Source of the DNA: Mesostigma viride
Taxonomy: Eukaryota > Streptophyta > Mesostigmatophyceae > Mesostigmatales > Mesostigmataceae
Length of the DNA stretch: 64,000 bases
NCBI GenBank assembly: GCA_009746045.1
Contig: RPFO01000002.1
Span: 1,044,240 to 1,108,239, forward strand
Direction of reading: 5' to 3'
This document shows, piece after piece, positions 7,961 to 59,600 of the stretch. Position numbers and translations under genes: made by a program. Position 1 is the stretch's first letter. The number at the start of each line of letters is the position of its first letter. Below the pieces are notes generated by a model. The model did no database searches, was not told the DNA's origin, and worked only from the letters and a program-made list of their open reading frames with translations.

Positions 7961-8592
7961 GCAGCTCGTAGAGGACATGGGGGGCCTAGGCCTCTCCGTG
8001 ATTTGGAAAAAGATGATGGACAAGGCCAAGTGGGCCCAGGTCATAGAGGACAACAACCCCCATGCAGTGGGGACTGCCGCGCGATTGCACACGTGGGCGG
8101 CATGCTAGACAAGACCCCTACCTAGGGTCGCGGGCACCATAGATAGTTATAGGACTGTTTTATAGATAGCTTGTAGATAGCTTAGACCGGTAGGATTGCG
8201 AGTACCCATCCAACCTTCCATCCATCCATCCATCCATCCATCCATCCATCCATCCATCCATCCATCCATCCATCCATCCATCCATCCATCCATCCATCCA
8301 TCCATCCATCCATCCATCCATCCATCCATCCATCCATCCATCCATCCATCCATCCATCCATCCATCCATCCATCCATCCATCCATCCATCCATCCATCCA
8401 TCCATCCATCCATCCATCCATCCATCCATCCATCCATCCATCCATCCATCCATCCATCCATCCATCCATCCATCCATCCATCCATCCATCCATCCATCCA
8501 TCCATCCATCCATCCATCCATCCATCGGGGTAAATGCTCTGTGACTCCCCAACGGGACGGCACGAGTTTAATTAGTTAATTAATTAATTAAT
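7960..8592 (+). mobile_element. LINE family A 3' end with CATC microsatellite
   Basis: This contains the C-terminal coding piece (MGGLGLSVIWKKMMDK), a UTR with repeated GATAGCTTAGACCGGTA-like sequence, a long CATC array (8216-8526), the stem-loop GCTCTGTGACTCCCCAAC, and a TTAATTAATTAA tail. The order equals the 3' end at 6930-7182, where the CATC tract is only a few units long. Confidence 0.75.
8216..8526. repeat. (CATC)n microsatellite, ~310 bp
   Basis: An almost perfect four-base repeat of nearly 80 units inside a LINE 3' UTR. It opens all frames on both strands (IHPS on plus, MDGW on minus). Those frames are not genes. Confidence 0.98.
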
Positions 8593-11606: not shown

Positions 11607-13463
11607 CCCTCCCTCCCTCCTCCCTCCCTCCTCCCTTCCCTCCCTCCCTCCCTCCCTCCCTCCCTCCCTCCCTCCCTCCCTCCCTCCCTCCTCCCTCCCT
11701 CCCTCCCTCCTCCTCCCTCCCTCCTCCCTCCCTCCCTCCCTCCCTCTCCCTCCTCCTCTCCTCCCTCCCTCCCTCCCTCCCCTCCCTCCTCCTCCCTCCC
11801 TCCCTCCCTCCCTCCCTCCCTCCCTCCCTCCCTCCTCCCTCCCTCCCTCCCCCCCTCCCCCTCCCTCCTCCCCTCCTCCCTCCTCTCCTCCTCCCTCCCT
11901 CCCCTCCCTCTCCCTCCCTCCCTCCCTCCCTCCCCTCCCTCCCTCCTCCCTCCTCCCTCCCTCCCTCCCCCCTCCTTCCCTCCCTCCCTCCTCCTCCCTC
12001 CCTCCTCCTCCTCCCTCCTCCCTCCCTCCTCCCTCCTCCCTCCTCCCTCCCTCCCTCCTCCCTCCCTCTCCTCCCTCCCTCCCTCCCTCCCTCCCTCCCT
12101 CCCTCCCTCCCTCCCTCCTCCCTCCCTCCTCCCTCCCTCCTCCCTCCCTCCCTCCCTCCCCCTCCCTCCTCCTCCCTCCCTCCTCCCTCCCTCCCTCCCT
12201 CCTCCCTCCCTCCCTCCTCCCTCCCTCCCTTCCTCCCTCCCTCCTCCCTCCCTCCCTCCCCCCTCCCTCCTCCCTCCCTCTCCTCCCTCCCTCCTCCCTC
12301 CCTCCCTCCCTCCCTCCCTCCTCCCTCCCCCCTCCCTCCCTCCCTCCCTCCCTCCCTCTCCTCCTCCCTCCCTCCTCCCTCCCTCCTCCTCCCTCCCTCC
12401 CTCCCTCCTCCCTCCCTCCCTCCTCCTCCCTCCCTCCCTCCCTCCCTCCCTCCCTCCCTCCTCCCTCCCTCCCTCCTCCCTCCCTCCCTCCCTCCCTCCT
12501 CCCCCCTCCCTCCCTCCCTCCTCCTCCCTCCCTCCCTCCCTCCCTCCCTCCCTCCCTCCCTCCCCTCCCTCCCTCCCTCCCTCCCTCCCTCCCTCCCTCC
12601 CTCCCTCCTCCCTCCCCCCCCTCCCTCCTCCTCTCCCTCCTCCCTCCTCTCCTCCTCCCTCCCTCCCTCCTCCCTCTCCCTCCCCTCCCTCCCTCCCTCC
12701 CTCCTCCCTCCCTCCTCCCCCCTCCCTCCCTCCTCCTCCCTCCCCCCCCTCCCTCCCTCCCTCCTCCCTCCCTCCCCCCTCCCTCCCCCTCCTCCCTCCT
12801 CCCTCCCTCCCTCCCTCCTCCCTCCCTCCCCTCCTCCCTCCCTCCCTCCCTCCCTCCCTCCTCCTCCCTCCCTCCCTCCCTCCCTCCCTCCCTCCCTCCC
12901 TCCTCTCTCCTCCTCCCTCCCTCCCTCCCTCCTCCTCCCTCCTCCTCCCTCTCCTCCCTCCCTCCCTCCCTCCCTCCCTCCCTCCTCCCTCCTCCTCCCT
13001 CCCTCCCTCCCTCCCTCCCTCCCTCCTCCCTCCCTCCCTCCCTCCCTCCTCCCTCCCTCCTCCCTCCCTCCTCCCTCCTCCCTCCCTCCTCCCTCCCTCC
13101 CCCCTCCTCCCTCCTCCCTCCCCTCCCTCCTCCTCCCCTCCTCCCTCCCTCCTCCCTCCTCCCTCCCTCTCCTCCCTCTCCTCCCTCCCTCCCTCCCTCC
13201 CTCCCCCCTCCCTCCCTCCCTCCCTTCCCTCCTCCCTCCCTACCTCCCTCCCCCTCCCTCCCTCCTCCTCCCTCCCTCCCTCCCTCCCTCCTCCCTCCCT
13301 CCCTCCCTCTCCCTCCCTCCCTCCCTCCCTCCTCCTCCCTCCCTCCTCCCTCCCTCCTCCCTCCCTCCCTCCCTCCTCCCTCCCTCCCTCCCTCCCTCCC
13401 TCCTCCTCCCTCCCTCCTCCCTCCCTCCCTCCCTCCCTCCCTCCCTCCCTCCCCCCCTCCCTC
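11607..13463. repeat. ~1.85 kb pure C/T tract (CCCT/CTCC)n
   Basis: The + strand is essentially all C and T for about 1,850 bases, as an irregular mix of CCCT, CCT and longer C runs. It keeps several frames open on both strands (up to 846 codons of Ser-Leu-Pro on plus, Gly-Arg-Glu on minus). These are artefacts of composition and not proteins. Confidence 0.97.
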
Positions 13464-18639: not shown

Positions 18640-21600
18640 TCAGCCCCGCCCCGCCGGCCGGGCCGGCCGCCGTGTCGTGGACCTGGCTGCCGCGTTGCTG
18701 TGGCGCGTGCGTGGCCGCTGCGCCGGCGCGGGCGAGGGCTTCTGCGCGACGCCCAGCTTGGGCAAGGCCAGGTTGCTCGCCAGCTCGTCGTCGGGCAGGA
18801 CGGGCCCATTCGTGGCCTTGGGGTTGTTGGGGTACGTCCACGTGATGTAGTGGTAGTTGCGCCCGTTGGGGTATCTGGGGGGGGGGGGGGGGGGGGGGGG
18901 GGGGTGCAGAGGGGGTTGGAGAGGGGAAAGAGGACAGACATGTCAATCATTATCACTCACCTCATCGTGACCATGTCGATCGAGTTGGAAAAGTGTCAGC
19001 GGTCAGAAGCAAAATGAAGAAGCCTTGAGGCAGCCTACAGCACCAACATCAAGATTAGTACTATTTACAGCCATGCATGCGGAAAAACTCACTGCCTCGC
19101 CACCGTGTTGGCCCAGGGGGGGACTTAATGCATTAAGAAACAAACAAAAACCGCAAGGTCACCAACCTGAAACACCCACTAGTTCATCAACACTACATTG
19201 CTTATCAATATCTTTCATCAGCACTATTTAACAACCATCCCATTTTCATTATCAATATCTTTCATCAACACTATTTGACAACCATCCGACATGCCTATCA
19301 ACATCTTTCATCAACACAAATCGACAACCATCCCACATGCTTATCAATACCGTTCATCAACACTAATTTATAACTAACAACAATGCCACCATCACTCACT
19401 GAATCGCCACCGTGTCGATCCAGTTGGGGATGTTAGCATTAATGAAGCTCGCGCGGCTCGGCCCCCCCCGCTTGCCAACCTCCACCCCGTTGCTCAGGTG
19501 GCTGATGCTGTTCCAGTCGTCATCCACCTCGTACAGGTACCCATTCATCTCCATCGACAAGCGGAACCGTGTCTTCCCAGTGCGCTTGATGCCCAGCTTA
19601 AGCGTGCGCCACTGCCCGAGCGGCGACGCAAAGCAGCCGTTACCGTCGCGGTTGACGCGAGAAGGGTCGTACAGCTTGCCAGAGGCCTTGCGGTAGAAGC
19701 CGCACGGGATGTGGTTGCCGCTCTTGGGATCCTGCGGGGGGAAGGGGGGGGGGGGGAGGGGGGGGGGGCATTGTATTATGTAGTGTGAGATATTTGGACG
19801 GGATGTGGTTGCCACTCTTGGGGTCCTGGGGTGGGGTGGGTAGACCGGCATGGTGGGGGTGGGGGTGGGGCATTGTGTTATGAAAGTAAGATATTTGGGC
19901 GTTCCGGTTCACAGTGTTTGATCCGAACAGATAAAAAAATGACACCATTGCATACCAAACGTTTCCTTTCAAAGCGATTAAAAACAACGCGCTGTTAAAT
20001 ACTACCACTACCATCTAATACCTAATGTCTGGAACTATCTAATACATAATACATGATCTAATAAGTTAACGTTGGTGAAACCCACGTATTATGGGCCAGG
20101 ACAAAACCCAGGCCAGACGAATAGGAATGACCTAATATAAGTTACCGGTAAAAACCAAAAGGGGGAGGGATGGGGAGGGGGCGAAAACTTGCGTTATGTG
20201 TTGCATGAACTTTCAACTAAAATGCTAACCTAAACATTGCAATATCCAAATTGCAACCTATGAACTACAAGACAGCTGTCCCACAAAACCATATATTTCC
20301 ACAGGTCCCCACACAGCAAGTATTATTCCCCAAAAGGAGCTGCCTCACATCTCCCTGGCTCCCCTCCACCGCATACAATCCATTTCAATCCCCTCCCCCC
20401 CCTTTCCCTCCCCCCCTGCCACTCTTCCCCCTGTGTTTCTCCCCCACCCCCCCACCCCCCAAAAAACGACCCACCGGCCCACCCACCCTGCCCTCTCACC
20501 CATCTACCCCCCATGAAGCCACCGAATTCGTACTATGAAGACCTACTCTTACTACACCGCCCACCTGGTACGTGCGCAGCTGGATGCCACTCCGCCCCCC
20601 CCCCACCCATCCACCCACTCCCTAGCCTAACATATATATACCCGCAATATTCAACACCCTATCTAATGACCCCCCACGAACCTGGTACGCGCGCAGCTGG
20701 ATGCCCAGGTGCGGGTATACTCGGAAGTGGTACCCCCGGTACGAGCGGAACGGCTCGTCCGCCAGAATACGCTCCATCGACCGGTAGTCCGTCGTCTGCG
20801 CAAACCCATCCCCGCTGATGGGCGCAACCTTGTTGCTCGTCGTGTCAAAGAGGCCGATCCGGAAATCCCCCGTGCCGGCCATGCAGCTCACGCTCGAGTG
20901 CGCGCAGGGGAACGCGCCCATGCAAAACTTGCCGGGGCCAGAGTACAACTCCGCGGGGCACGAGTTGCCGCCCGAGCTCTTCCACCGAAACCCGAGCGTG
21001 ACCGAGTCGCCCACCACCGAGAGCCTCTCCGGCGCAAAGTGAGTCAGCACCATGTCAGGGTGCGTCGGGTCGTACCAGGTCATCGAGTCGTCCACGTGGT
21101 CGTGCCGCAGATTCACGCCCGACCGAGACTTGTACCAGGTCGACATGAAGGGAGGCTGGCGCAGCAATCCCCCCGCCGGGACAGCGCTGGCACCCGACCC
21201 AGACCCAGCCCTACTCGGGCCTGCCGGTGTCCATGCTGCCGCCGCCCCCCCGCCAGGTGTCGCCGCGGCAGCGCCCGGGGCCGGCTTGCGCACGACGGCG
21301 ACGACGTTCGCGCTCTCGCCGGGCACCCCACTGACCGGCTTACCCCACGTAGGGGTACTGCGGGCCGGTGCCGTCTTCAGCAGGGGACCATAGGGGCTCA
21401 CGGTGGGGGGGAAGGCGACATCGTCCACACGTTCGCTGCCACCAGCCCCACCAAACACCACCTCCGTCTCCATCGAAGCCCTCCGGTCCGACGCTGGCGT
21501 GGCCGCACCACTGCTGGCGGCTGTCGAGGGCGCATCCCTCACTTGCGGCACTTTGCGAGGCTCTTGCCCCCCCTGGCCTTGTGACCTCTCTTCCTCCGTC

Positions 21601-23096
21601 TGCTCCCTCTCCCTCCGCGGTTGCTCTCGCTCCTTCGCGTCCGCCTCCCGCTGCTGCACTACCTGCTTTGCAGCGAACTCACTCTTGACCTGCTGCCGCC
21701 CGAGCATGACCTGCCGCGCGCGTTCCGCCTGCGCCAGCACCGCCGCGTCCCGTGCCGCCGCCATCCGCTGCTCCCTCTCCACCTCCTCCCTGTCGGGCCC
21801 CTGGCGCCGCGCCGCCAGCACGGCGGCCGCGGCCGCCGCCGCCTCGGCCTCCCCCCCCCATTGCGATGTGGGCCCCCTTCCTTGAGACTCGGCCTTGCGC
21901 GCGTTGGCCAGCTCCTTCCAGCGCTGCAGCATATGGCCCACCCCAGGCAAACCCGTGGACGGAGACGTCCCATAGTTCTGCGGACCGCCAAGTGTCGGAA
22001 CGGCGGACGCCGACGCGACCGCGAGGGGGTGGGGGGCGACGACGACCGCCGGGCGGGGGGTGGCGCCACCCCCTGACTGGGTGGCCGAGGAACTACTGCT
22101 CGTTGCCGCGCCGCTCTTGATCAGCTCCATGGCTTTCTTTAGCTTGTCCAGCTGGGTCCTCATCGCCACGGCGTCGCTCGCGGAGAGCGCCTGCCGTACC
22201 GGGGCCGGGTCGGGCTTCCTGGCCCCGGGCCCCGCGTAGGATAGAGTGACCGACTCGTACCCGCGCTCCTCGGGGTACAGTATCGCGACCGTGCTGATGT
22301 ACTGGGGCGTGTGCAGCTCGACCAGGGCCTCGCGCTCTGACTTTAGGAGCGTGCGGCTGAACGCCTTGATCTCCTGCGCGAGCGCGGCCCCGTCCACGTC
22401 CAGCCAGTCGTCCCTGTACTCGTAGCTCGTCTCGCCGAGGGACATGCGGAGCGAAAATAGCGCGTCGCCCAGGCGCTCGATCGTGAGCTCCATGGGGGCA
22501 GGCGCGCCCAGGGGGAGCCCGAAGCAGCCGTTGGCGCGCGTCGCGAGCCGGTAGTCGTCGAAGAGCGTGTCCGAGATCTTGCGGTAGAAGCCGCCGCGGA
22601 GGGCCTGGGTGCCTTCGTCCACGTGGGGGAAGATGCGGAAGTGGTACCCGCGCCACGTGGACAGAGGAGGGCGGCCCATGCTCTCGGTCATGGCGCCCAT
22701 GTCCTCGGCAGGGGCGAAGCCGTTTTCCAACTTGGAAGCTTGCTTCGAGTCGGTCACGGTGTCGAATAAGCCGATACGGAAGTCCCCCGCGCCGGTCATT
22801 TCCTCGCAGGACGGGGCCCCGGTGCTAGACCATGTAAGTTTTAGTGTTACACGGTCGTGGACTTCTGACAACCTCTGCGGGGCAATGTGCGTGACGATCA
22901 TCCCAGGGGCTTTTGTCTTCCAGACCATCGCATCCTCCGACGGCGAGTACTTCAAGTCGGCCTCGCGCCCACTCCAGCTATGAACCCACTTCGTTGAGAA
23001 TGGTGGCTGGGAAACCGCGGGACTGATATGAGCATGGAACAGGACACAGAGCAATGCAACCGCTAACCGAGCTAACTGGGAACGCGCCGTCGACAT
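18640..23096 (-). CDS. Secreted protein with two homologous domains
   Basis: Three exons: 20682-23096, 19400-19731 and 18640-18874, joined at CAG|GTTCGT, CAG|GAT, CA|GTGAGT and CAG|ATA junctions with matching phases, give 993 residues. An N-terminal signal peptide (about 1-30, core LAVALLCVLFHAHI) marks it for secretion. Domain A (about 31-300) and domain B (about 648-920) share QPPF-TW near the start, VTHIAPQRLS/LTHFAPERLS, GDFRIGLFDT, the block GYHFRIFPH/GYHFRVYPH, GGFYRK/CGFYRK, NGCF, and a closing TVAI-YP. The domain is not one I can name; conserved Trp and Tyr and the β-rich pattern resemble concanavalin-like jelly rolls. A Gln/Ala/Glu/Arg-rich linker (about 470-580) looks coiled-coil. 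The C-terminus is basic and Pro-rich. Exon 1 holds domain A, the linker and half of B. Function is unknown; an extracellular binding role is a guess. Confidence 0.85.
19080..19375. repeat. Intron 2 tandem repeat, ~54 bp unit
   Basis: TATCAATATCTTTCATCA, CACTATTT and ACAACCATCCCA recur about four times at 19190-19370 inside intron 2 of the secreted-protein gene. A copy of the exon 2 donor edge lies at about 19086-19125. Confidence 0.75.
19740..19870 (-). repeat. Extra copy of exon 2 acceptor edge in intron 1
   Basis: On the minus strand, CCCCAG|GACCCCAAGAG with GGCAACCACATCCCG repeats the real exon 2 start (CCGCAG|GATCCCAAGAG) exactly 94 bases upstream. The copy then runs into AAATATCTCAC, an intron motif that is also duplicated. 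G-runs flank both copies. Confidence 0.85.
20563..20590 (-). repeat. Extra copy of exon 1 donor edge in intron 1
   Basis: The last ~24 bases of exon 1 and its GT (ATCCAGCTGCGC-CGTACCAG|GT on the minus strand) recur 117 bases downstream in the intron with one mismatch. The copy would encode the same IQLR-YQ ending. Confidence 0.85.
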
Positions 23097-23470
23097 TGGC
23101 GTTGTTCTACGGGGTTCACCGCCTGTTAAATCCCGCACATTCCCGGCACGATCATAGACTGCATACACCAAGCTCACGTCACAAAGCCCCTTTGATCATC
23201 CTATTTCCACCTCCCGCTTCGTTCGGTGCTGACTGTCGGTTAAATTTACTACGTAGCCGATGGCGCGGTCAAATATTGCCCACGCAGGGTCGCCATAGCC
23301 GACTGAGTGAGCAAATTTCTCGAGCCCTTCTCGTGGCCAGCAGAGGGCCGGCCTATGTGGCAGGTGGCTGCCTTCCAGCACAGCCATCACCGCAGTGCCA
23401 ACTGACTTCTGGCATACAAGCCAAGGGGCGGTAAGCTGGCGCCTGAGATTCGGAGTGTCGTAGATTCTGA
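23097..23470. promoter_or_regulatory. Upstream region of secreted-protein gene
   Basis: Presumed promoter and 5' UTR of the minus-strand secreted-protein gene. I see no TATA box or other named element. The frame stays open upstream of the chosen ATG to about 23177, but the signal peptide fits only the start at 23096. Confidence 0.3.
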
Positions 23471-23960
23471 TCTGGCGGAGCCAATTTTCGGAAGAACCGT
23501 TAGGTTCGCCAGAATTGGCGAAGCTTATCAGGCGGAGCCAATTTTCGGAAGAACCGTCAGGTTCGCCAGAATTGGCGAAGCTTATAAGGCCGTACACGTG
23601 AGAAAACATAGGAATAGGGGATGAAAATCCGTCAATCCATCCATACATACATACATCCATACATACATCCACCGAATTTGTCCCGAATTTGCAAGCATAA
23701 GGGTGAGGTTCTTCCGAAAATTGGCTCCGCCGTAGAGTTTCAACGGGCAAGTTGCAAAACGCACGTTACTTGATAAGGCCGTACACGTGAGAAAACATAG
23801 GAATAGGGGATGAAAATCCGTCAATCCATCCATCCATACATACATACATCCACCGAATTTGTCCCGAATTTGCAAGCATAAGGGTGAGGTTCTTCCGAAA
23901 ATTGGCTCCGCCGTAGAGTTTCAACGGGCAAGTTGCAAACACGCACGTTACTTGATATGC
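23471..23960. repeat. Two nested tandem duplications
   Basis: A 56 bp unit containing the perfect palindrome-like TTCGCCAGAATTGGCGAA occurs twice (23471-23585). A ~187 bp unit (starting AAGGCCGTACACGTGAG, ending ACGCACGTTACTTGAT) then occurs twice (23586-23955). Both units share the sequence TTCGGAAGAACC or its complement. The second duplication ends 5 bases before the target duplication of the transposon at 23970. Confidence 0.9.
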
Positions 23961-23969
23961 TTCGAAATA

Positions 23970-24183
23970 GGGTTTTTGGAAATCGCATCCGGTGCTGGCC
24001 GCACCCGATGACAGATGACAATGACAAAAGGCTACGGTACGCGTCGATAAATACGGGTAACGCTTGCGAAAGGAACGGTGCGGGCCGATAAATACGGGTA
24101 ACGCTTGCAGACGCGGCGGCATGAGCCGGAAACATTGTGATCAGGGACGAAACGAACGGAAAGAGCAGCCTACTGGCTCATAC
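23970..24183 (+). repeat. Left terminal inverted repeat
   Basis: Pairs with 29197-29410 at 212 of 214 positions. It carries two direct copies of a motif beginning CGATAAATACGGGTAACG. Confidence 0.95.
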
Positions 24184-25154
24184 TACGGAGGGCGCCGACG
24201 CACATGCCTGTGCGAACTGCTAAGTCTACTGTATCGATCGCACGCGCCCCGGCGCGTAAACTTATGGTGCGTAAGTACAAATGACAGAAGAAAATGCTGG
24301 CGCGTCAACTGCCAAGCGGAGCCTCGCCACAGGATGGAAGGCAGAAAACTTCTAAGTCCATCACCAATTTCACCATGGCCAGGGCGCGAGCCGCGGGGGG
24401 ACTTTGGCCTAGTAGAATAAATTCAACTCCACACCAAAAGAATTGACGGACCGAAAGAATTTAGCGGCATCTGTTCCAGTCAAGTAGGCTGGGGAAATGT
24501 CGATCAACGGCCGAATTAGTATTGCGTTGCGGTGCTAGCTGGTAGGACAAACTCAGAGTCAAGAAAACAGGGCTGTTAGATTGGTTCCTTCGGCTGTGCT
24601 GTGGAGGGAATCCGGCGGGTTGTGCGCAACAGTTTTCATGCCTCCGATTGATTATATTCGCATGTTAATAAGTAATTTAAACCTCCATGGACGTGCGGGC
24701 ACAAGACGACGATATTTAGGCAAATATTTTATTGCAGGACGCAGGTCCCATGGTGGCATGGTCGGTGTTATGTGTCGTAAGGGCGGGGTTGCCACTTCAG
24801 GATCAGCTGCTCCGCAGATAAAGGCATGCTTGGGATGTTGTGGTTTGGGGCAGGTAAAGGCCACTAGGTGTCCTTGGCGCTTGTGACCACTGACCACATG
24901 CCGTTCACATCATGAGTTTCTACACGGCATTGGCGCCCTTCTCGGCTGCAGGCCAATTCTAGGAAGCAGGTTTTTGCTGTGCAGTGGGGTAGGGTGAGGG
25001 GTGCCGGGTGACAACCGCAGTGGCCCGGTGTCGGCAAGATGACGACCGGGAGCGCCAGAACTGTCTGCGTTGTAGCACACAAAGCTCTATGATTCATGCG
25101 TATGTGTTGTAAATTGTAATTGGATAAGGAGCAATTGAAAAATCATGCAAATTG

Positions 25155-25215
25155 AGGACTTGGTATAAATTATCTGGCCTGCGCTGGTTGTTGCATTGTC
25201 TCCTTGATAAATGGT
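25155..25215 (-). repeat. SINE family C head fragment
   Basis: Only the terminal module remains, related to GGCCTGCGCTGGTTGT and TCTCCTTGATA, with a short internal duplication. A similar scrap in the opposite orientation lies at 25985-26050. Confidence 0.5.
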
Positions 25216-25379
25216 TGCTTCTTGCCTCGACGACATATATAAGCCCTCAATGGGGCACGTGAACAGGTACTCCCGGCCACTAGTTGGTCATTATCAAGTG
25301 AAACTACGTGCATTCACACATATTAATTATTAAGTGAGACAATGATGTGAGACAACTAGAGCATATCTACTAGTGAGTA

Positions 25380-25581
25380 TATATCTAGGCAAGACTCCTA
25401 GGGTCTGGCACACTCTAGCTAGATAAGATAGACTAATAGGATTGTTTGTTACTAGATAGAATAGACGGGTTGGATTGTGTGCACCCATCCATCCATCCAT
25501 CCATCCCAACATCCATCCATCCATCCATCCATCCATCCATCCATCCATCCATCCATCCATCCATCCATCCATCCACCCACC

Positions 25582-25666
<85 letters not shown>

Positions 25667-25858
25667 ATCCATCCATCCATCCATCCATCCATCCATCCAT
25701 CCATCCATCCATCCATCCATCCATCCATCCATCCATCCATCCATCCATCCATCCATCCATCCATCCATCCATCCATCCATCCGTCGCGATTAATGCTCCA
25801 TGACTAGCTCCCAAACGGGAGCTAGCACGATTTTAATTAGTAAATTAATTAATCCATC
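25380..25858 (+). mobile_element. LINE family A 3' end nested in the DNA transposon
   Basis: Matches the 3' UTR order of 7960-8592: AGGGTCT..., ATAGACTAATAGGATTG, a CATC array interrupted by an AC array (25489-25783), a stem-loop with GGGAGCTAGCACGA, and a TTAATTAAT tail. It presumably inserted after the DNA transposon had formed, or was carried along by it. Confidence 0.7.
25489..25783. repeat. (CATC)n-(CACC)n-(AC)n-(CATC)n microsatellite
   Basis: CATC units at 25489-25573, CACC units, about 40 AC dinucleotides to ~25663, then CATC again to 25783. The long frames across it are artefacts. Confidence 0.97.
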
Positions 25859-26649
25859 TCAGGCATGCATAGTTGTCTCACTTAATCTAGTCAATCGAAT
25901 CCATCGGGGTTGACGAATTAAACTCGTGCACACAATCATACCGCGGCTTAAGAAACAATTGATCACACCACATTGGACCGCAATGCGTTGATCAAGAAAT
26001 ATCAAGGAGACAACCAGCGCAGGCCAGAAATCGAGAGATGCGTTGATCAAGAAATATAATTGCCTCCTTGATAATTGTGTCTAGTTATCTCAGTAAGTTA
26101 GACAAGTAATATCCTTGACTACTTCTGTGGAACTGAAAGTGGTCAACGAGCAAGAGGCTTTGAGGATGGATGAATTATGCGAACCTTATTATACCATGTT
26201 AGATTAGATCACAACAAACGTTCCAGCCGAATCTTGATAAGCATTGGAGTCCTAAAATATCTAGGCAAGACTTGGCAGAACCGACCAACTAATAACCCCA
26301 CGTGGATCAGGCCACGACCAATGAGGGTCTAAACAAGTCAGTTGACAAAGTCCAGGTCTCAAAATATCTCTGCACGTGGGAAACCTCATAACTAGCTCAA
26401 TACTCATCCAAAAGGCCTCAAATAAAATCCCAAACTATTACAAAACTCAGGATGTAACAACAAGTCAGATTTGGTTGTTACATATTGACATGTCAAGCAA
26501 ATGTGGGTCAGCAAGTATTGACTGTCCTCCCTAATGGTGGCGGTTGCTAGGGAACATCCAGTAATGTTATCCTGAGGGGGGGCACTCAGGGTTTAAGGGA
26601 ACTCCCGCAGCAACCTTGGGTTGGTACCACAATGCATGGCACTACCCAA

Positions 26650-26832
26650 CGCCAGCGGTGGCGGCGGCCCGGCTAAGGCGGTGGCGGCCCAAAGGAGGCG
26701 GCGGCGGCAGCGGCGGCCCGGAGGAGGGGGCAGCGGCGGCCCGAAGGAGGAGGCAGCGGCGGCGGCCCGGAGGCGGCGGCAGCAGCGGCGGCCCGGAGGC
26801 GGGAGCGGCCCGGAGGAGGCGGCGGCGGCCAT
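26650..26832. repeat. GGC-rich imperfect trinucleotide repeat
   Basis: Irregular GGCGGC, GGAGGC and CAGCGGC units inside the DNA transposon, encoding Gly/Gln/Arg or Ala/Pro/Ser runs depending on frame. No gene context is evident. Confidence 0.85.
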
Positions 26833-29196
26833 TGAAACCACCACTCAGTTGGACAGCCTACACGAGCTTTCACCAACAAAGCCGGACATGTCAAACTACC
26901 AGTGAAGATTCGCTTTTTGCACCCGAGTGGGTTGAGAGCCTGCACTACTCGTCTAGCCACTAAATCGGCACATGCCAAACCAGCCACTTCAGGCTAGCTT
27001 CAACCATGGTTGAACCACCGTCAACATGAGCGGCTCAACACATGTAGTGAACGTTGGAACTGATGGGAAGCACAGATGTCCACCGGGGGAAGTGATGGCA
27101 CCACGGCTCCATCGCAAGCAAGGGCCACTAGACCTACTGTCCACACCATGATGGCTGATTGAGCTTCAAACGTTGCCAAGAATTATGATGATGGCACCAC
27201 TGATATGCCACATCCTTGATGATAAGTGTAGCAATAGTAGCCGGGCCGCAGCAGCAAGAAGATATGTCGCATGCAGCGCCACGTAGGTCCGTCCACCATG
27301 CGCCGCACCTGCAAGTGTGGAGACTAGGGCATGGTTGCATGTCTGGGGGTGGCCTTGTACATTTGGGAGGAGTTGGCGCCACATGTATAAGTAACGCAAA
27401 GAAACCAAGAACTCAAGTCCATCGTTGAAAGAAAATACACACATGAGATTCAAGGCCACATCTCACGATCATGGAGGCAGCCAACAAGCACTACAATGGA
27501 CACCACAACTCCAACATTCCATTATAGTGCTTAAAGCCAAACACCGCAAAATGTTCGGGAGCAAGACAATGGCCCGGCACATATGTTTGAGATACTCACA
27601 TTACACTACGGCAAGAAGATGTTCAATGTTGATACGAAGTTTTATGGCCGAGGAAACGCACCAACTTACAACAAACACAGATGAAATGTAGCCAGGATAC
27701 ACATGTTGTCCCGCTTAGGATTGTTAACGTGAAGATGGATGTGCCGCAAAGGATGTAGGCAGCCTGTGGTGCATAGAAGTTGCACCTTCCCTAATGCACA
27801 TAGCAAGCGCTGCCATGCTAGCAACATTGCCAGCAAATACCTCCAAATGATCCATGAGGGCATTGACCTCGTGAAGGTGCATTGAGGTTGCAGTTTCATA
27901 TTCGCTCATGGGAGTTGGGGTTGCGAAGAAGCACTGCCAACACTTGGAGCAGACGCGGCATTGCTAGGGCAGTTGCCGTGACCAAGAGAAGCAACGAACC
28001 CGCCCCGGCCCCGCCCGGGCCCGCTTCGGAGTACCCGTAGCCTCACCGACAACGCTTCCACCAAGAGTTGCAGAGACCTTGCGTTTTGACGTGGGTGGCT
28101 CGTTGGGATGGTGTGCTCTTTGTTTACGTGGTTGTTTTCCCCGACCACGGGGTGGAGGACCTAAAGGGTTTTCTACCAAGCGAGCAGCACTTCCATCCCC
28201 TCCGAGGGAGCGTGGACGACTAGACGGAGGTACCCAGAGCGTGAGGGGTGAATGAATTGGTAGATGGGTAAAGGGAGAGTTGGAAAGATGGACAGAGGGA
28301 TGTGGGCCCACGAAGGCTTGAGGGACCATATACCATCAGCCGATGCAGCTAGCGGCAACATGCCGACCAAGCCCGTGTACAAGGTTGCTACGTTGGAGGA
28401 ATTCTTCGTGTAGGCGGGCTGGGTGAACCGGATGTAAGGACCCTCGGGTGGGACGTCGGAGGCGCGCGCTTGCAAGTAGCAGATCGAGGACGACGGCAAA
28501 ATCGAGGACGCGGGGCCTGTGTTATGGCACAAGCCATGGGGGATATGAGTATGGACGGGCCAGTCGAGGGGGACATGCATGGGATGGGGTCTGAGCAGCC
28601 GAAGGTTGGTACCCAAAGGCGCACCGATGGCACTAACAGGATGCAGAAAAGAAAAAATGGTACCCAACATGCAAGTAAATCCAATAATCAAAAGCGGCGG
28701 GTGGACAACGTGACATAGGATTTAAGTCAACACTGACGTACCATCATGGGAGCTAGACAGTGCCGAAACACAGCGACCGTGGTCGATAAGCATGCCCGCG
28801 ACAGGCGCCAACGAGAAGGCAGCAATGCAAAAGATCATCGCTACCATCGTGGCCTTTCCGCGCAGTCTGTAGTTGTCGTGGCCCGGCATCACACCCGGGC
28901 CCATCTCGACAAACTCACCAGCCAAAGGAAGTATGGCTGTTATTCAAAACGTTCGCCAAGGCTGACAAAAGTACGCGTACACCTTCTACCCTACTTCTTA
29001 GCTTTATGGACTGGGCCGTCTGGGCGGGATATCGTGTTTGAAGCCTCACCTTGGCCGTAGCGATTATTTTCCCGCCTTGTACAACGGCGTGGTGGCCAGG
29101 TTCTTTCTTACGCCACGTTCAAAATCACCGTTCATAAACACTTTACGCGGCCGCCTTGGCATGGTATGGCCCATAGGCCGCCATCTTGACCCACGA
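26833..29196. other. Transposon interior without recognised gene
   Basis: Several frames of 60-170 codons exist on both strands (for example 28173-28691 minus, and 27964-28329 minus with a basic GPPPRGRGKQPRKQR stretch). None contains a transposase motif I can recognise. It may be captured host sequence or a badly decayed coding region. Confidence 0.4.
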
Positions 29197-29410
29197 GTAT
29201 GAGCCAGTAGGCTGCGCTTTCCGTTCGTTTCGTCCCTGATCACAATGTTTCCGGCTCATGCCGCCGCGTCTGCAAGCGTTACCCGTATTTATCGGCCCAC
29301 ACCGTTCCTTTCGCAAGCGTTACCCGTATTTATCGACGCGTACCGTAGCCTTTTGTCATTGTCATCTGTCATCGGGTGCGGCCAGCACCGGATGCGATTT
29401 CCAAAAACCC
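29197..29410 (-). repeat. Right terminal inverted repeat
   Basis: Reverse complement of 23970-24183 with two mismatches. TTCGAAATA, the duplicated target, follows directly. Confidence 0.95.
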
Positions 29411-29419
29411 TTCGAAATA

Positions 29420-30383
29420 CAAATAACTGTGTCAGTCAGTCAGCGGTCGGTATATTCCAACGCCGGGTGGCCGGCACAGCTCGGCAGAGATAATCATAAC
29501 TATTTACCGTACTACTTTTCCGTATTCCAAAGGACTTTTCCTCTTGGCCAGACTCGTGCAGCCGGCATACAATCTCTACTGTACAGCATACAATCTGTAT
29601 CAGGCCACAGTTATGTATGACCGGCGTGGTCATCCATACCATGAACTGACTGACGTGCTGCCGCCTGCCGGTCACGTCGCTGGACGCTGCCTACAACTGT
29701 AGTGCCTTGAGCTACCTGCAGTTGTGACTAATGACTAGTGACTAGTGACTAGTCCTGACTGTTTTTCCGGGGAAATGGGTATTCTTATTAACCAATGGGA
29801 ATATCGTTAGGTGAAGGGGTACCACGGATCGACCAGCTGGTTACCCAATGTGTGTAGTGTAATACGTGATAGTTTGGAACTTAGAATCGACCAGGGAAGC
29901 CGTACAGGGTGTAGGAGTTAGTTGTGACTCGTGACTTTTTCGGGGAAATGGGTATATTTTATTAGCCAATTATGGACCAAAGAGGTGAGAGGGGAAATGA
30001 GTATCAGCGAAACCTAATTAAGGTGGGCACACACACGTGTGGCGGTGACAAGTGAAAGGCTAATAGGGCGCGTTGTGACTCGTGACTCATGTGCGGCAGT
30101 GCAGCGTGGGACACAACAACAACAACAACAACAACTGACTGGACTTAACGTATCCTGTGCCAGCATACCTCCCGGAGGTCGAGAAAGGCGGCTGACTGAA
30201 AAGTGACGACGGTCCCCAGAAGCGACGAGTGACGACTGACGCGAGTGAGGTTTTATCGAAGTCGTCGACTATCGATTCCGTGGGCACGAGTCGGGCAGTC
30301 GGCAGGGTCAACCAGAAACGCATTGCCAGGAATTTAGGTGGGCTACTGAGACAAGAGTCTCGTATTCTAGTTTGAATTGAAAA
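29420..30383 (+). promoter_or_regulatory. Upstream region of OLA1
   Basis: Holds the OLA1 promoter by position. I see a TGACTAG-like short tandem repeat (29727-29757), a block with GGGGAAATGGGTAT occurring twice (about 29772 and 29943), and (AAC)n at 30114-30134. No canonical TATA box stands out. Confidence 0.35.
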
Positions 30384-36278
<5,895 letters not shown>

Positions 36279-36720: not shown

Positions 36721-36934
36721 GGATGGGATGGGATATGGGATATGGGATATGGGATATGGGATATGGGATATGGGATATGGGATATGGGATATGGGATATG
36801 GGATATGGGATATGGGATATGGGATATGGGATATGGGATATGGGATATGGGATATGGGATATGGGATATGGGATATGGGATATGGGATATGGGATATGGG
36901 ATATGGGATATGGGATATGGGATATGGGATATTA
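36721..36934. repeat. (GGGATAT)n heptanucleotide array, left part
   Basis: About 30 units. The right end abuts the (TTAA)n tail of an inserted element, and the array resumes at about 37433. Confidence 0.97.
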
Positions 36935-37432
36935 ATTAATTAATTAATTAAACTCGTGCTCCCGTTGGGGAGTCACGGAGCACCGAAGTGCTTTTAATCC
37001 CTGTGTGTGCACTACAGGAGAAAGGGCAGAGACCCCCAGTCTCCTTCATGCCAAAGGCATGCCACAGCTGCAATCGGGCGCGGCTAGCTAAAAGGACAGG
37101 CTAACGATCCGGCAAACTGTGGGTGCAATAAGACCCATGTGAGCATATCATAGCAAGGAGCGTGGGCAAGTAATCTGAACATAGCCAGGGCGTAGCATGG
37201 CTGTACTAGGACTAGGCTATGGCTGGTTGTGTACCGTGCGTTGGCGGCACGTGACTAGGTGTGTTGGCACAGCTAGGCAACATTCTAGGCATGGCTGCCT
37301 TAGCGGCAGTGACGCCAATGGTTACAAGCTAGGGCTATTGCTATTCTAGCCCGCTGGGGGCGTCCACATCTTGTGGTTGATCATCAGGTCCCCGCCCCTC
37401 CAGTACACCTTGGGCTTCTGGGGGTCCTGCAT
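36935..37432 (-). mobile_element. ORF1-tail element inserted inside the heptanucleotide array
   Basis: A full copy of the family described at 5290-5790, in reverse orientation: TTAATTAATTAATTAA tail, stem-loop, ~440 bp UTR, and the ORF1-like end (KVYWRGGDLMINHKMWTPP on the minus strand, extended to QDPQKPK). It has GGGATAT repeats on both sides, so it landed in a pre-existing array. Confidence 0.8.
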
Positions 37433-38062
37433 ATATGGGATATGGGATATGGGATATGGGATATGGGATATGGGATATGGGATATGGGATGGGATGGGAT
37501 GGGATGGGATGGGATGGGATGGGATGGGATGGGATGGGATGGGATGGGATGGGATGGGATGGGATGGGATGGGATGGGATGGGATGGGATGGGATGGGAT
37601 GGGATGGGTGGGATGGGATGGGATGGGATGGGATGGGATGGGATGGGATGGGATGGGATGGGATGGGATGGGATGGGATGGGATGGGATGGGATGGGATG
37701 GGATGGGATGGGATGGGATGGGATGGGATGGGATGGGATGGGATGGGATGGGATGGGATGGGATGGGATGGGATGGGATGGGATGGGATGGGATGGGATG
37801 GGATGGGATGGGATGGGATGGGATGGGATGGGATGGGATGGGATGGGATGGGATGGGATGGGATGGGATGGGATGGGATGGGATGGGATGGGATGGGATG
37901 GGATGGGATGGGATGGGATGGGATGGGATGGGATGGGATGGGATGGGATGGGATGGGATGGGATGGGATGGGATGGGATGGGATGGGATGGGATGGGATG
38001 GGATGGGATGGGATGGGATGGGATGGGATGGGATGCCAGGATGGGATGGGATGGGATGGAGC
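37433..38062. repeat. (GGGATAT)n passing into (GGGAT)n
   Basis: Seven or eight GGGATAT units to ~37489, then about 110 units of the pentamer GGGAT with a single-unit defect near 37607 and another near 38036. The 200+ codon Trp-Asp-Gly-Met frames are artefacts. Confidence 0.97.
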
Positions 38063-53651: not shown

Positions 53652-56600
53652 CTAGCCGCAAGTGTCATCGAAGACCTGGGTATCTTCCTCACGTGTGGCC
53701 GAGTCCATCCCAACTGCGCCAACATCCACCGAGGAGCGGTGCAGGGTACAGCCCCGCACTCGTTCCAGGATGAGAGAGCCCTGCTGCGCAGCAGCACTGG
53801 AACCTCCTGGATTTGTGACCCCCGCAGACGCAAGGGGCATACCCAGATAATCGCCCAAGTCCCCAGCACTGCCATCCTCACGCATGCTAGGTTGAACCTC
53901 CATGGGCTGATTCAGCCCGCCGCCCAGCAGGCACTCGGACACTGGCGCAAAGCCCCCGATGTATGCCACGTCGGCGCAGATGTATAGGAACCGGTCACTG
54001 TAGTGCATCTCGGGCGAGCGAATGTCCACGATCGGTGTCACCGGGAGGGGGAACCCTGCTACGTGCGATTTTCACCAGGCAGCCAGGGCGGGCATTATAA
54101 GATATATCCTTCACTCTGATGTAAGTATATATAATTTTAAAGTTTTATCCTATTATACATTTATTGCCTCACTTAATATCCTATAATACATTTTGAAAGT
54201 TCCCAACGAGAGCGCAAAAGTCTAATAACAAAACTCGAGAAAGGCCGACTACCAATACACTGTGCAACGGTGGTGGCCAAGCATGGCAACCAAGACTAAA
54301 AAAATACAGTCGCAATGCAGCAACAGCTAGTACCACAGCTCCTGCTAGAATCCTAAGTTATGAATAATACCATCCTAGACAACAGCAAACCGTATCACCG
54401 AATGCTGCTGCAGCTGTACGACAAAACATTATTGATCCTAGCTGCTGCCAGGGATGGACCATCCTGTATGACCTGGCATGACTTACCGCTCCCCACGACT
54501 CTCCCCTCAACCATTGTGAACCCCCCATGACCACCCCTTACGACCCTACGCCGCCTAAAAATAATATCAACCCCCACCAACAAGCACGACACAACCACCA
54601 GCCTGCATGGAATGCCAGAAACAATGACACAAAGCATCAACATGCCATCGATTCACCCAAAACGTACCATCAATGTTCAAGCCATGCACAAGCAAATGTT
54701 CAAGCCACGAATACAGCCATCCACAAGCCACAAATACAGCCATCCACAAGCCACAAATACAGCCATCCACAAGCCACGAATACAGCCATCCACAAGCCAC
54801 AAATACAGCCATCCACAAGCCAGGAATACAGCCATCCACAAGCCACAAATACAGCCATCCACAAGCCACAAATACAGGCATCCACAAGCCACGAATACAG
54901 CCATCCACAAGCCACAAATACAGCCATCCACAAGCCACAAATACAGCCATCCACAAGCCACAAATACAGCCATCCACAAGCCACGAATACAGCCATCCAC
55001 AAGCCACAAATACAGCCATCCACAAGCCACGAAGATCTGCTACAAATACAGCCATCCACAAGCCACAAATACAGCCATCCACAAGCCACGAATACATCCA
55101 TCCACAAGCCACAAATATCTGCCACGAATACAGCCATCCACAAGCCACAAATACAGCCATCCACAAGCCACGAATACAGCCATCCACAAGCCACGAATAT
55201 CTGCCACGAATACAGCCATCCACAAGCCACAAATACAGCCATCCACAAGCCACGGATACAGCCATCCACAAGCCGCAAATATCTGCCACGAATACAGCCA
55301 TCCACAAGCCGCAAATATCTACCACGGATATATGCCACGGTCGCAAAAAATGTGTCGTACGCAGTACGCACCATACGCCAGCCGCCCGTTGACAAGTGGC
55401 AACAGCACGTCGCGCAGCATGAGGGTCACGGGCCGCTGCACGAGCGCTACGTTGACAGGGCCCACGTTGGTCCATTTGAGCGAGAGGGCGAGCGAGACGA
55501 GACGCACACGCGCGGTCACGTTGTACTCCCGGATGCCAGCAGCGCCGTCGAGGGACACGTTGGCGGCGACGGCAAACGCGGAGACGGCCGTGCCGTTGTC
55601 CAGCAGCACCTGCGAGAGAAAGGAATAAAAAAGGAGATGATACACGAATGTATGAATTTTACCCCCCTTTTCAGCGTGTGCCGGCCGTGCCCTTGTCCAG
55701 CAGTGCCTGCGTGCACAGGAGAGAAAAAGAGAAATAAAAAAGAAGAAACGCTTCAGATAGTTCTTCTTAGCGTGCGCAGGTTGTACCCTTGTCCAGCAGC
55801 ACCTGCGTGCGCCAGGAAGAAAAAGAGAGTCCATGAAGTTAAGGGGGGACCAGAGAACGGACGGTTCAACTACTACTCCTTGCATGATCAGCAGCCATAG
55901 TGATGTCGTTGTCCAGAAGCACGCGCTACTAGGAGGAACGAAACACATAGCGGGAGAGCACCTGCTAATAGGAGGATGCAACACATAGCAGGAGAGCACG
56001 TGCTACTAGGACTGAAACGCATAGCAGAAGAGCATATGCTCATAGGACAAAACAACTCTGCGGTATCATTTCCTGCCCCATGTCCCATTGGTTAAAGACG
56101 ATCCGCTCGCAGCCGTGCGGTTGTTCAGGAGTACCCGTTTGCACAGCGCGTTCAGAGGCAAAGCACACGACATTAATTTTGATGATGAATTCTTGCACGT
56201 TTGAGGCGAGAAGAATCTGCCAATACATATAACCCATATATGTACAACCAATGTATAATACATACTACTACATGCCTTTGCCATTGCCGAGCAGCACCTG
56301 TGTGCACAGGGAGAGGAGACTTCCGCAGATCATCCACCGGCGCGTCGCCGCACGAGTGCCGTCGTGACAGTCCCTTCTAATCTTATTTAAACCGATGACT
56401 GTATCAGCCGTATGATTAACCACCCACCTGCACATCCAGCTGCACGAGCGCCGTCATCTCGGCCCCTTGTACGAGTATAGTGACCCCATAACAGCAGCAG
56501 CAACCACGATGAACCACCCACCTGCACATCCAGCTGCACGAGCGCCGTCATCTCGACCACTTGTACGAGTATAGTGACCCCATAACAGCAGCAGCAAACA

Positions 56601-59600
56601 TGAAGAACCGCCCACCTGCACATCCAGCTGCACGAGCGCCGTCATCTCGATGCCCACCGCCACCACCTGGATCACCGGAGGCTCCAGCGCCGCCACATCC
56701 ACCACCATCGGTGCGTCCGGGTACGCGGCCCACAGGCCAGGCACCACCCAGCGCCAGGACTTGGTGTTGAGCGTGAGGGGGACCTTGTCCGGGAGGCGGG
56801 TCACGCGCATGGCCAGGGACCCTGCCGCCTGGAACACGGCCGCAGCGCTGTGGAGGACAGCGTCGGTTACGGCCACCGTCACCTGGGGAAAGAACGGGAC
56901 GGAGAGGATTGGGGAAGGGAATTGGGGGGGAAAGCGGGGGGGAAGCAGGGGTGGACAGCAACAGGGTGACAAGCGGGGGTGGAAAGCAGCTGGGTGGGGG
57001 AAGGGGCAGGGACGGGACGGGGGGAAATTATAGGGAAGGGCATGGATGTTATGGTGGGCATGGGGGTGGGAGTGAAAGTGGGTGGCGGGTGGGAAGAGGG
57101 GGGGGGGGGGGGGGGGGCATGGGGGGGGGGGCATAAGAAAGAGGCGGGAGGCAGGGCTGGGTGGCTGGGTTGAGGGAGTACTGTAGTAGCCTACATAGCC
57201 AAGGCAGTCCACCGTCCGAATCGTTAGTATTAATGATTAATCTTAATTCTGGACGGTCACCACCTGAAAACGCTACATAAAACCAAAAAAATGCAAATAA
57301 TCAATTCCCGAGTGTGCTCTGCCGTCTGCTTTCTAGCGACCAAACAAACACAAAGTGTAATTAAATATTCTTTGGCTGACAAATGTGCTTTACTGGCAGT
57401 AACAACGCGGCTGCCAGCTGGTTTATACCACAAAAACAAAGAATTATTGAATCGCACAGGCAGCTCAACCGTTGTTCGGTAAGCAAACAAACAAACTAGA
57501 TATTAATAAATAGGGCGGGCCATGTAGTACTTCTTCCAACCAATACAGCGTAATTATCTAATCCCCCAGGGCCTATCGGCAAAATTCAAACTAACAATGT
57601 GGACGATGTATCCTAAGGCATACTTCACAAAAGCAGGTTTCCTTCGTGTTCTTGACCGACTTGACGGCGAGACAAATCAGCACACTAACAAGCGACACCT
57701 GTCATGGCCCCCATGGAACTGAGATGGAGGCTAAGCACCGGATGCGGGATCATAATCAACACTAAGATATACCCCACAAAGAATCACGTTGTACCACATA
57801 TATCAGAGTTCGGGACACCCCATTGATAAGGTTATCCTACTATCAGGTAGGAGGCCATGTTAGATCAAATAATAAGACTACCATGCTATCAAGGAGGCCA
57901 TGTTGGATCAAATAATAAGACTACCATGCTATCAAGAAGGAGGCCATGTTAGACCAATTAATAAGGTTACCCAACTATCAAGTAGGAGGCCATGTTAGAC
58001 CAATTAATAGGATTACCATGCTATCAAGTAGGAGGCCATGTTAGACCAATTAATAAGGTTACCCTACTATCAAGTAGGAGGCCATCTTAGACCAACCAAT
58101 AAGGTTACCCTACTATCAAGCAGGAGGCCATCTTAGACCAACCAATAAGGTTACCCTACTATCAAGCAGGAGGTCATCGTACACAGCAGATGCCACATTC
58201 ACCTTCTTCCCCAGACGATTGCTGTAGAAAAGATGCCACACACATAGTTCATTGCCAAGCCCAAGACCATCCCAGTGCGTGCAGGACTGGTCCGCTAGTG
58301 CAAAGACCATAACAGTGCGCGCAGGGCTCATCCACTAGTTTAAGTCCATGCCAGAGCGGGCAGAATATCACCCCCTGCTTCTACGGTATTCCTCCACAGC
58401 TGCATCCTAGACCTGAAGCGATGCCATCAACCGCCGTACCATCTTGCCCGCCCCCTGGCAGGGTGGTGCCGGCGGTATCTGCGGGGGGGGCGGCCCTGGG
58501 GGGTCCACGTCGTGCCCTTTTTGGAAGAACTCGCCGCGCGTGCCCACGGTGAGGGTGTCGCGGGCCAGGAGGGGGTCCCCGACAAGGTCCACCCGCAGGC
58601 CGATGTCGCCCTGAACGGGGATCACCGTGGACAGCTGGCGGAGCACGCCGTCCAGGGAGGCGACGGCTGATTGGACGCCGTCGGCGATGCCGCCGTTAAT
58701 GGCCTGGGGACGGGCGGGTGGGCGGCAGTGACAGGTGTAAGTAGGCAGGTGTACAATGCTAGTGGCTAAAGCCAAAACAGTGGACGGCTTCTTGTACATG
58801 GGCATGCCTACAAAGAAGATGCCATTAAACATGAATTATGAAACAACCCAATGAAATTATGAAAGGTAACGCATCTGTAGTTATGAAAAAGGGCATGATA
58901 TATACAGTCGGGGTGTGCTGCCACACATCCTACCGAGGTGATGCGGTCGGTGAACAGGTGGAGGAACATCGAGTAGAGCCAGGAGGCGCCCCCCGCCAGC
59001 TGGACGTCCTGTTGCGGCAATTCAAAGAGGAAGGACAGGGCGGTACGCAAAGGAGGGGACAAGTAGACAGGTAAATTAAGTAGATAAATACACATATAGA
59101 TACTACTTCAAATAAATAGATCATTAAAAAAAACAACAAGCCCCCTCCAGCTGGACAGCCCGCTGCAAGCTAGACGGGAAAACAGTATCCAAAAATACAA
59201 TTAGGGGAACAAAACTTCTAAATCGGCCACCAGCTGGGCATTGAGGCAAAGAGAGGTTAGCACCTTACAACACACACACACACAGACACAAAAAAAAAAG
59301 GCAGTGAAAAAGGAGAGCACCGTGGAAGGAGACAAACAAGAACAGGAACAAAAAGGACAGGAAGAACAAGGACAGGAACACTACGGACAGGGGCAATAAG
59401 GACAGGAACAATAACGACAGGAACATTAAGGACAGGAAAAATAAGGACAGCAACAACAAGGACAGGAGCAAAATGGACAGGAACACTAAGGACAGAAAGT
59501 AACGCATCACAGCCAGCAGGGCGTCCTGCGGCTACCGGCTGATGCGTACGCGGCATGACTACAGACGTGGCCAAATACTACTGAAACGGCATGCCAGCTG

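Follow-up and report, generated by a model that had tools for sequence, protein, structure and literature searches.

Copies of exon edges in the introns of Mesostigma viride as probable scars of short local tandem duplication

Introduction

Mesostigma viride is a unicellular streptophyte alga. In one 64,000-nucleotide stretch of its genome, referred to here as the window, three unrelated genes appear to carry a second copy of an exon edge, splice site included, within the adjacent intron. These exon-edge copies, or echoes, raise the question of whether they are genuine and, if so, which process leaves them behind. The original prediction proposed either a general process, such as tandem duplication of local sequence that is tolerated only in the intron, where splicing conceals it, or a mechanism tied to the splice sites themselves. 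The excerpted text of the Mesostigma genome paper, whose assembly may differ from the assembly used here (G000), describes long introns with a mean of 1141.9 bp and 30.1% repetitive sequence (PMC6947507).

Results

Genes of the window and their splice junctions

All loci were taken from the 439.9-Mb assembly G000, in which the window lies on contig C1591. The proteins of the window match three Mesvir1 records (P0121, P0001 and P0122), and exons were set by aligning these three proteins back to the window and inspecting the splice signals. This yields 18 junctions, from three exons of a secreted-protein gene (Mesvir1/10693, Mv13783), three of OLA1 (Mesvir1/10694, Mv13784) and six of an LBP/BPI-family gene (Mesvir1/10696, Mv13785). 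The secreted-protein gene lies on the minus strand with exon 1 at 20682..23096 (100% match to P0121 residues 1-805, donor after 20682), exon 2 at 19400..19731 (100% match to P0121) and exon 3 at 18643..18874 (P0121 match). OLA1 lies on the plus strand, where exon 1 (30384..30456) encodes the N-terminus of P0001, exon 2 (32501..32594) residues 25-56 and exon 3 (35231..36278) residues 57-404, the last being 100% identical to the EukProt entry jgi/Mesvir1/10694 (P0001). Exons 4 (56616..56882) and 5 (55372..55609) of the LBP/BPI gene, both on the minus strand, were placed with P0122.

Some further features of these genes are recorded here. P0121 (20682-23096 and 18643-19731, minus strand) contains one domain twice, the copies being about 35% identical; a Pfam search with exon 1 gave no match, and a protein search with P0121 returned, among the best 7992 candidates, its own record alone. 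The LBP/BPI reading frame runs on upstream of the annotated start of P0122 (60740-61181, minus strand) and this stretch opens, by eye, like a signal peptide; the annotated 462-aa model P0122 may lack part of the N-terminus. Units of 4-7 bases form very long arrays at 8206-8526, 11607-13463, 25485-25782, 31857-32245, 32847-33234 and 36728-38059, the fourth and fifth of which sit inside OLA1 introns 1 and 2. Minisatellite arrays are found in introns at 57826-58177, 54701-55330 and 19199-19365, with periods of 23 or 46 and their multiples among others, and the unit length 23/46 recurs across unrelated introns of the window.

Echoes of exon edges in the window

For each junction, 30 exon bases were compared with up to 600 bp of the adjacent intron (match 1, mismatch -1, gap -2/-1) and with 300 dinucleotide-preserving shuffles of the same intron, and a score of at least 14 was called an echo. 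A copy of the exon edge was found in the adjacent intron at 7 of the 18 junctions, namely donor 1 (score 22), acceptor 2 (24) and donor 2 (17) of the secreted-protein gene, donor 2 of OLA1 (17), and acceptor 2 (14), donor 4 (30) and acceptor 5 (20) of the LBP/BPI gene. Exon-edge matches had been expected to exceed a shuffled-intron control, and at all seven junctions none of the 300 shuffles reached the observed score. The remaining 11 junctions scored 6-11 in the same scan, below the echo threshold, including acceptor 3 of the secreted-protein gene (7), donor 1 of OLA1 (8) and acceptor 3 of OLA1 (6). Among them LBP/BPI donor 2 scored highest, with 11, a value reached by 4% of its shuffles; the scores of the others were reached by half or more.

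In the secreted-protein gene (all minus strand) the echoes lie at 20565, 19825, 19093 and 18961, at or a few bases from the places originally named. The echo of the exon 1 donor edge (20565..20588) is located 117 bp into intron 1 and comprises 24 nt of exon, 23 of them identical, followed by GT; the intron sequence that follows it does not detectably resemble the sequence following the real donor (z 0.9). At the exon 2 acceptor, a head-to-tail copy of about 94 bp (19798..19891, outer end approximate) consists of the intron end and 28 nt of exon (19798-19825; 26/28 identical), so that the echo starts at 19825, 94 bp from the real edge, and here the intron part is repeated too (z 8.3). The exon 2 donor edge has two echoes in intron 2, one with its junction at 19093 (19093..19115, exon-side end approximate; score 18), 307 bp into the intron, and a second with its junction at 18961 (18961..18990; score 17), 439 bp into it.

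The predicted OLA1 echo of the exon 2 donor edge is likewise present (32718..32760, plus strand; score 17), with its GT at 32752, 157 bp into intron 2, and contains a small internal repeat. An echo of the LBP/BPI exon 2 acceptor in intron 1 was recovered in weak form (59141..59156, minus strand; 15/16 identical, 151 bp upstream), its score of 14 exceeding all 300 shuffles. Beyond these, the LBP/BPI gene carries stronger echoes that the original prediction had not listed. The exon 4 donor edge has two (56428..56556, minus strand; junctions 56522 and 56428), each with about 35 nt of exon, and the edge is matched at 30/30 bases; with a period of 94 (lags 94 and 188) they make three copies in total, in which intron sequence is duplicated too (z 28.5). 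The exon 5 acceptor edge also has two (55682..55802, minus strand; score 20), which start at 55706 and 55802, 97 and 193 bp upstream, in repeats at those lags. Thus, exon-edge echoes are real.

Every event lies on the intron side, as predicted, but the scan covered the intron side of the edges. The anticipated peak in distance near 94-97 bp did not materialise: 26 distances span 47-439 bp with a median of 101.5, five of them falling at 94-97 and 14 at 84-126. The annotated proteins P0001, P0121 and P0122 use the outermost copy of each junction in the three window genes. Intron gain of the Rogers type was considered and rejected on these proteins, since there is no new intron and the outer copy is the one used.

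Echoes in other gene families

The window itself prompted the hypothesis, and counts are therefore also given without it. The sample beyond the window comprises CCT/TCP1 genes elsewhere in the genome (PF00118; loci L007-L052), whose 53 matches offered 106 possible junctions; 72 of these, predicted by a simple splice-site score, passed the cut-offs (donor 3, acceptor 0.4) and 34 were dropped. Of the 28 CCT matches without a locus, two on C887 and two with in-frame stops were dropped, and L009 was left out of the counts as near-identical to L008. After the CCT result, 40 introns between neighbouring matched exons of HSP70 (PF00012; L053-L072, 20 of 27 introns noted) and kinesin genes (PF00225; L073-L092, 20 of about 34) were analysed. 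The 34 that were clear and phase-consistent were kept; L057, L059, L060, L062, L082 and L084 had ambiguous junctions and were dropped. The total of 158 junctions thus represents three gene families and the window, and family effects are possible. Denominators are 75 and 80 instead of 76 and 82 because anchors of low complexity, or with too little intron, were left out.

Echoes were found at 18/75 donor and 8/80 acceptor edges overall, and at 14/66 and 5/72 without the window. By set, donor edges gave 4/9 (window), 6/33 (CCT), 1/16 (HSP70) and 7/17 (kinesin), and acceptor edges 3/8, 4/38, 0/16 and 1/18. The claim of a general process holds in so far as echoes recur in the unrelated CCT and kinesin genes; uniform it is not, as donors exceed acceptors and HSP70 genes carry almost no echoes. 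The difference between HSP70 and kinesin introns might reflect expression level or the age of the introns.

Matching of the edges to introns of other genes was rare, at 0.35% for donors and 0.56% for acceptors in the window and CCT sets and at 0.18% for either in the HSP70 and kinesin sets; anchors straddling the donor reach up to 1.3% in this null because donors share a motif. Reverse-complemented edges gave no match at score 14 (0/75 donor, 0/80 acceptor), so that 26/155 edges have a direct same-strand copy nearby and 0/155 an inverted one. Window anchors of 30 bases found a match in regions at least 5 kb away in 0-0.3% of cases. Chance similarity is ruled out by the shuffles together with these far-region, cross-gene and inverted controls. 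The wider proposal that the echoes reflect chance, low complexity or assembly error could appeal to a window full of simple repeats and to intron ends that are in part homopolymer-like. We give it almost no credence, in view of a cross-gene null of 0.2-0.6%, the absence of inverted matches and the exclusion of low-complexity anchors; moreover, the copies are often diverged from each other and the pattern occurs in genes on many contigs.

Background rate of local repeats

Compared with the nearby region on one side, window anchors had a copy in 13-15% of cases when placed in introns, about 5% in intergenic sequence and about 1% in exons. Across the sample, a downstream copy was found on average for 11.2% of intron anchors placed +30 to +330 from the donor, and a copy for 5.0% of those in the acceptor direction; for exon-interior anchors the figures were 1.2% on the donor side and 0.65% on the acceptor side. 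Similar repeats are therefore frequent within introns but hardly occur within exons, which indicates that duplication is not confined to one kind of site.

Against this background the donor edge is enriched 2.1-fold over the intron rate (CI 1.2-3.6, sign-flip p 0.006), and the acceptor edge 1.9-fold (CI 0.7-3.9), an enrichment that is not significant (p = 0.09). We estimate that freezing of the exon copy by selection predicts an edge-to-intron ratio of 1.6-2, a figure derived from divergences of about 7% at codon positions 1 and 2 and about 15% at position 3. As the 2.1-fold excess at -30..0 is close to this estimate, the frequency there needs no special mechanism. The anchor at -22..+8 gave 30.3% against 9.9% in introns at threshold 15, a ratio of 3.05 (CI 1.88-5.32; bootstrap P(ratio<=2) = 0.042). 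This excess is a hint of more than freezing and may be inflated by the shared donor motif. In the HSP70 and kinesin sets together, copies were found for 8/33 donor edges, 10/34 anchors at -22..+8 and 1/34 acceptor edges, and intron anchors between 0 and +300 had one in 1-3 of 27-34.

A mutational process tied to 5' splice sites would place one end of each break or copy some 25 nt into the exon, so that exon edges would be copied preferentially together with their donor; R-loops, paused polymerase or spliceosome-protected RNA serving as repair template are examples of proposed agents. Such a process would explain why donors exceed acceptors and why the -22..+8 anchor stands at three times the intron rate, and it would suit the many copies that match over the exon tail and a few donor bases only. 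We nevertheless regard it as unlikely, since the -30..0 anchor stands at only 2.1 times the intron rate, short repeats of a similar kind are found far from the junctions within introns, 11/33 events, including most of the least diverged, have their intron part repeated, and an ending near +7 is equally expected from constraint on the real donor.

Structure and decay of the copies

In 26 echoes, differences from the exon amount to 13/213, 16/211 and 31/208 at codon positions 1, 2 and 3, respectively (third against first and second, p = 0.002; first against second, p = 0.57). These counts are near the 1:1:2 ratio expected if the echo drifts freely and the exon drifts at third positions only. The echoes thus appear to decay like unconstrained DNA, with no sign of codon constraint in this comparison, and that of L019 has acquired an in-frame TAG. 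The codon-position differences do not support the echo as coding or selected sequence. If echoes were kept by selection, for example because they tune splicing as decoys or backup sites, the retention of GT and much of the donor motif in most donor echoes printed (judged by eye) would be accounted for. This reading is very unlikely: the codon-position pattern looks neutral, the copies range from identical to barely recognisable at distances of 47-439 bp, and one of them is partly replaced in a near-identical contig.

At score 16 or above, the intron part is clearly repeated (z >=4.5) in 8/23 donor and 3/10 acceptor events; one further acceptor event stands at z 3.8, and 22/33 events fall below z 4.5, perhaps through decay. 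In many of the latter the match is limited to the exon tail and a few intron bases, as expected if intron copies drift on both sides and exon and donor on one. Two events fit poorly, namely donor 1 of the secreted-protein gene (23/24) and L019 (28/30 of the edge, z -0.8), in which the exon copies are nearly unchanged and the introns that follow show no detectable likeness.

Mobile introner-like elements, with the exon edge as their target-site duplication, would likewise leave direct repeats, mostly of 12-38 nt of exon, flanking a segment of tens of bases. We consider such insertions highly improbable, as intron anchors match the introns of other sampled genes in 0-1.2% of cases (score 14) and the segment itself is repeated after the echo in those 11 of 33 events. 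Introner-like elements are thus not supported among the sampled introns.

Reach of the repeats into the exon

Ungapped self-comparison (score at least 18) was used to determine how far the repeats extend, in a test on 15 donors and 4 acceptors that was framed after seeing the data. In 18/19 pairs the repeat extends just 12-38 nt into the exon. Breakpoints uniform for each spacing predict 9.6/19 beyond 45 nt, and one was observed; simulations were this extreme in at most 1/50,000 runs for donors and acceptors and in 9-12/50,000 for donors alone. The short exon reach is non-random. We suspect that competition between splice sites removes copies with longer exon, as an inner copy with more exon resembles the real site more. 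A rival view places the limit in mutation, for example because exon chromatin is protected or because an R-loop ends near the donor.

The left ends of the repeats lie at -38 to -12 in 14/76 donors, with one at -69 and none at -11 to +16; farther into the intron there are about 3 donors per 30 bp over the first 220 bp or so, and then fewer. This clustering is a further point in favour of the splice-tied process. In one form of this reading, splicing, or the chromatin or RNA-DNA structure of the 5' splice site, would direct local duplication, so that junctions would be hot spots, with breaks or template switches about 25 nt inside the exon, and introns would lengthen from the donor end by repeated copying of the edge. 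We hold this to be rather unlikely.

Turnover between near-identical contigs

Contigs C1641 and C887 carry the same CCT gene, with 2.3% mismatches over the aligned part. The C1641 intron (L008) contains a diverged echo with its donor, and C887 (L009) has a locally repeated tract at that place. Between L047 and L048 of these two contigs, 10 gaps of at least 6 bp were listed, two of which are alignment ends and two (43 and 18 bp) near-copies of adjacent sequence.

Near-identical gene copies with equal match scores occur on separate contigs for CCT (C1641/C887) and kinesin (C622/C2), which suggests that the 440-Mb assembly retains separate haplotypes or that segments were duplicated recently. On contig C2011, GroEL-like and two DnaK-like frames span the full family profiles without interruption, and the contig may be a bacterial contaminant.

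Discussion

We propose that short tandem duplications arise locally and repeatedly, and that the echoes are the scars of those that straddle exon-intron junctions, revealed by freezing of the exon copy. We assign this reading a probability of about 0.72. Short local duplications would recur with spacings mostly of about 45-130 bp, some of them straddling a junction by chance. Once a junction is duplicated, use of the outer site alone would leave the protein unchanged, so that surviving copies would be intronic. Purifying selection would then hold the exon copy while the intron copy decays, and an exon-intron pair might remain recognisable for as much as about double the lifetime of an intron-intron pair. 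Since constraint on the real donor extends only a few bases beyond the splice site, similarity would stop there too. Copies with long exon may be purged as competing splice sites, leaving mostly 12-38 nt. The duplicating step itself, taken from the literature, could be break repair, for example fill-in and joining of staggered breaks.

Of the two mechanisms in the original prediction, local tandem duplication hidden by splicing is supported by recurrence in unrelated genes, by the same repeats in intron interiors, by decay resembling that of unconstrained DNA and by the repeated intron part in a third of the events (11/33). The splice-tied mechanism fares less evenly: it is not needed for the frequency at -30..0, where 2.1-fold compares with 1.6-2, while the 3.05-fold rate at -22..+8 and the non-random reach speak for it. 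These same observations weigh against tandem duplication, as the -22..+8 excess is slightly above the freezing prediction and 18/19 pairs have a short reach, as do the unclear second intron copy in 22/33 events, the acceptor enrichment short of significance and the scarcity of echoes in HSP70 genes.

If about a quarter of 5' splice sites have a decaying twin, as in our sample (18/75), they form a natural experiment in splice-site competition, in which each twin started as an identical site with part of its exon and the outer site won. The twins can be dated, since the exon copy is a frozen reference, and could thus provide a clock for intron growth. If the limit of about 40 exon bases is selective, it would show how much exon a copied site can carry before it becomes dangerous. 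Such copies may also mislead gene prediction. Echoes may record both the growth of introns and the way in which splicing distinguishes a real site from its twin.

Vaughn and Bennetzen reportedly found in 2014 that short tandem duplications are common among rice insertions. According to PMC8355091, short tandem duplications from break repair outnumber all other short insertions in the human genome; they resemble the echoes in being head-to-tail copies of tens of bases. The Mesostigma case differs in being seen through splice junctions and in its bounded exon reach; its standing frequency we judge, from this one genome, to be unusually high. Among the literature matches listed, which largely lack subscription papers and so give weak evidence of novelty, none presented copies of exon edges within introns as a genome-wide phenomenon. 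Intron gain by tandem duplication (ATP2A1; potato RdRp) also involves duplicated splice signals and, under the Rogers model, leaves the peptide unaltered, as far as the excerpted account goes (PMC4974935). In Mesostigma, by contrast, an existing intron receives a spare copy of the exon edge near the same splice site, and no new intron arises. Finally, introns hold many matches to splice motifs that are presumed unused, some of them usable, according to excerpts of PMC10809524. These unused motifs and dual-specific splice sites share with the echoes the presence of extra splice-site matches in introns, whereas the extra sites of Mesostigma are copies of real sites that bring a flank of exon with them and have a clear origin.
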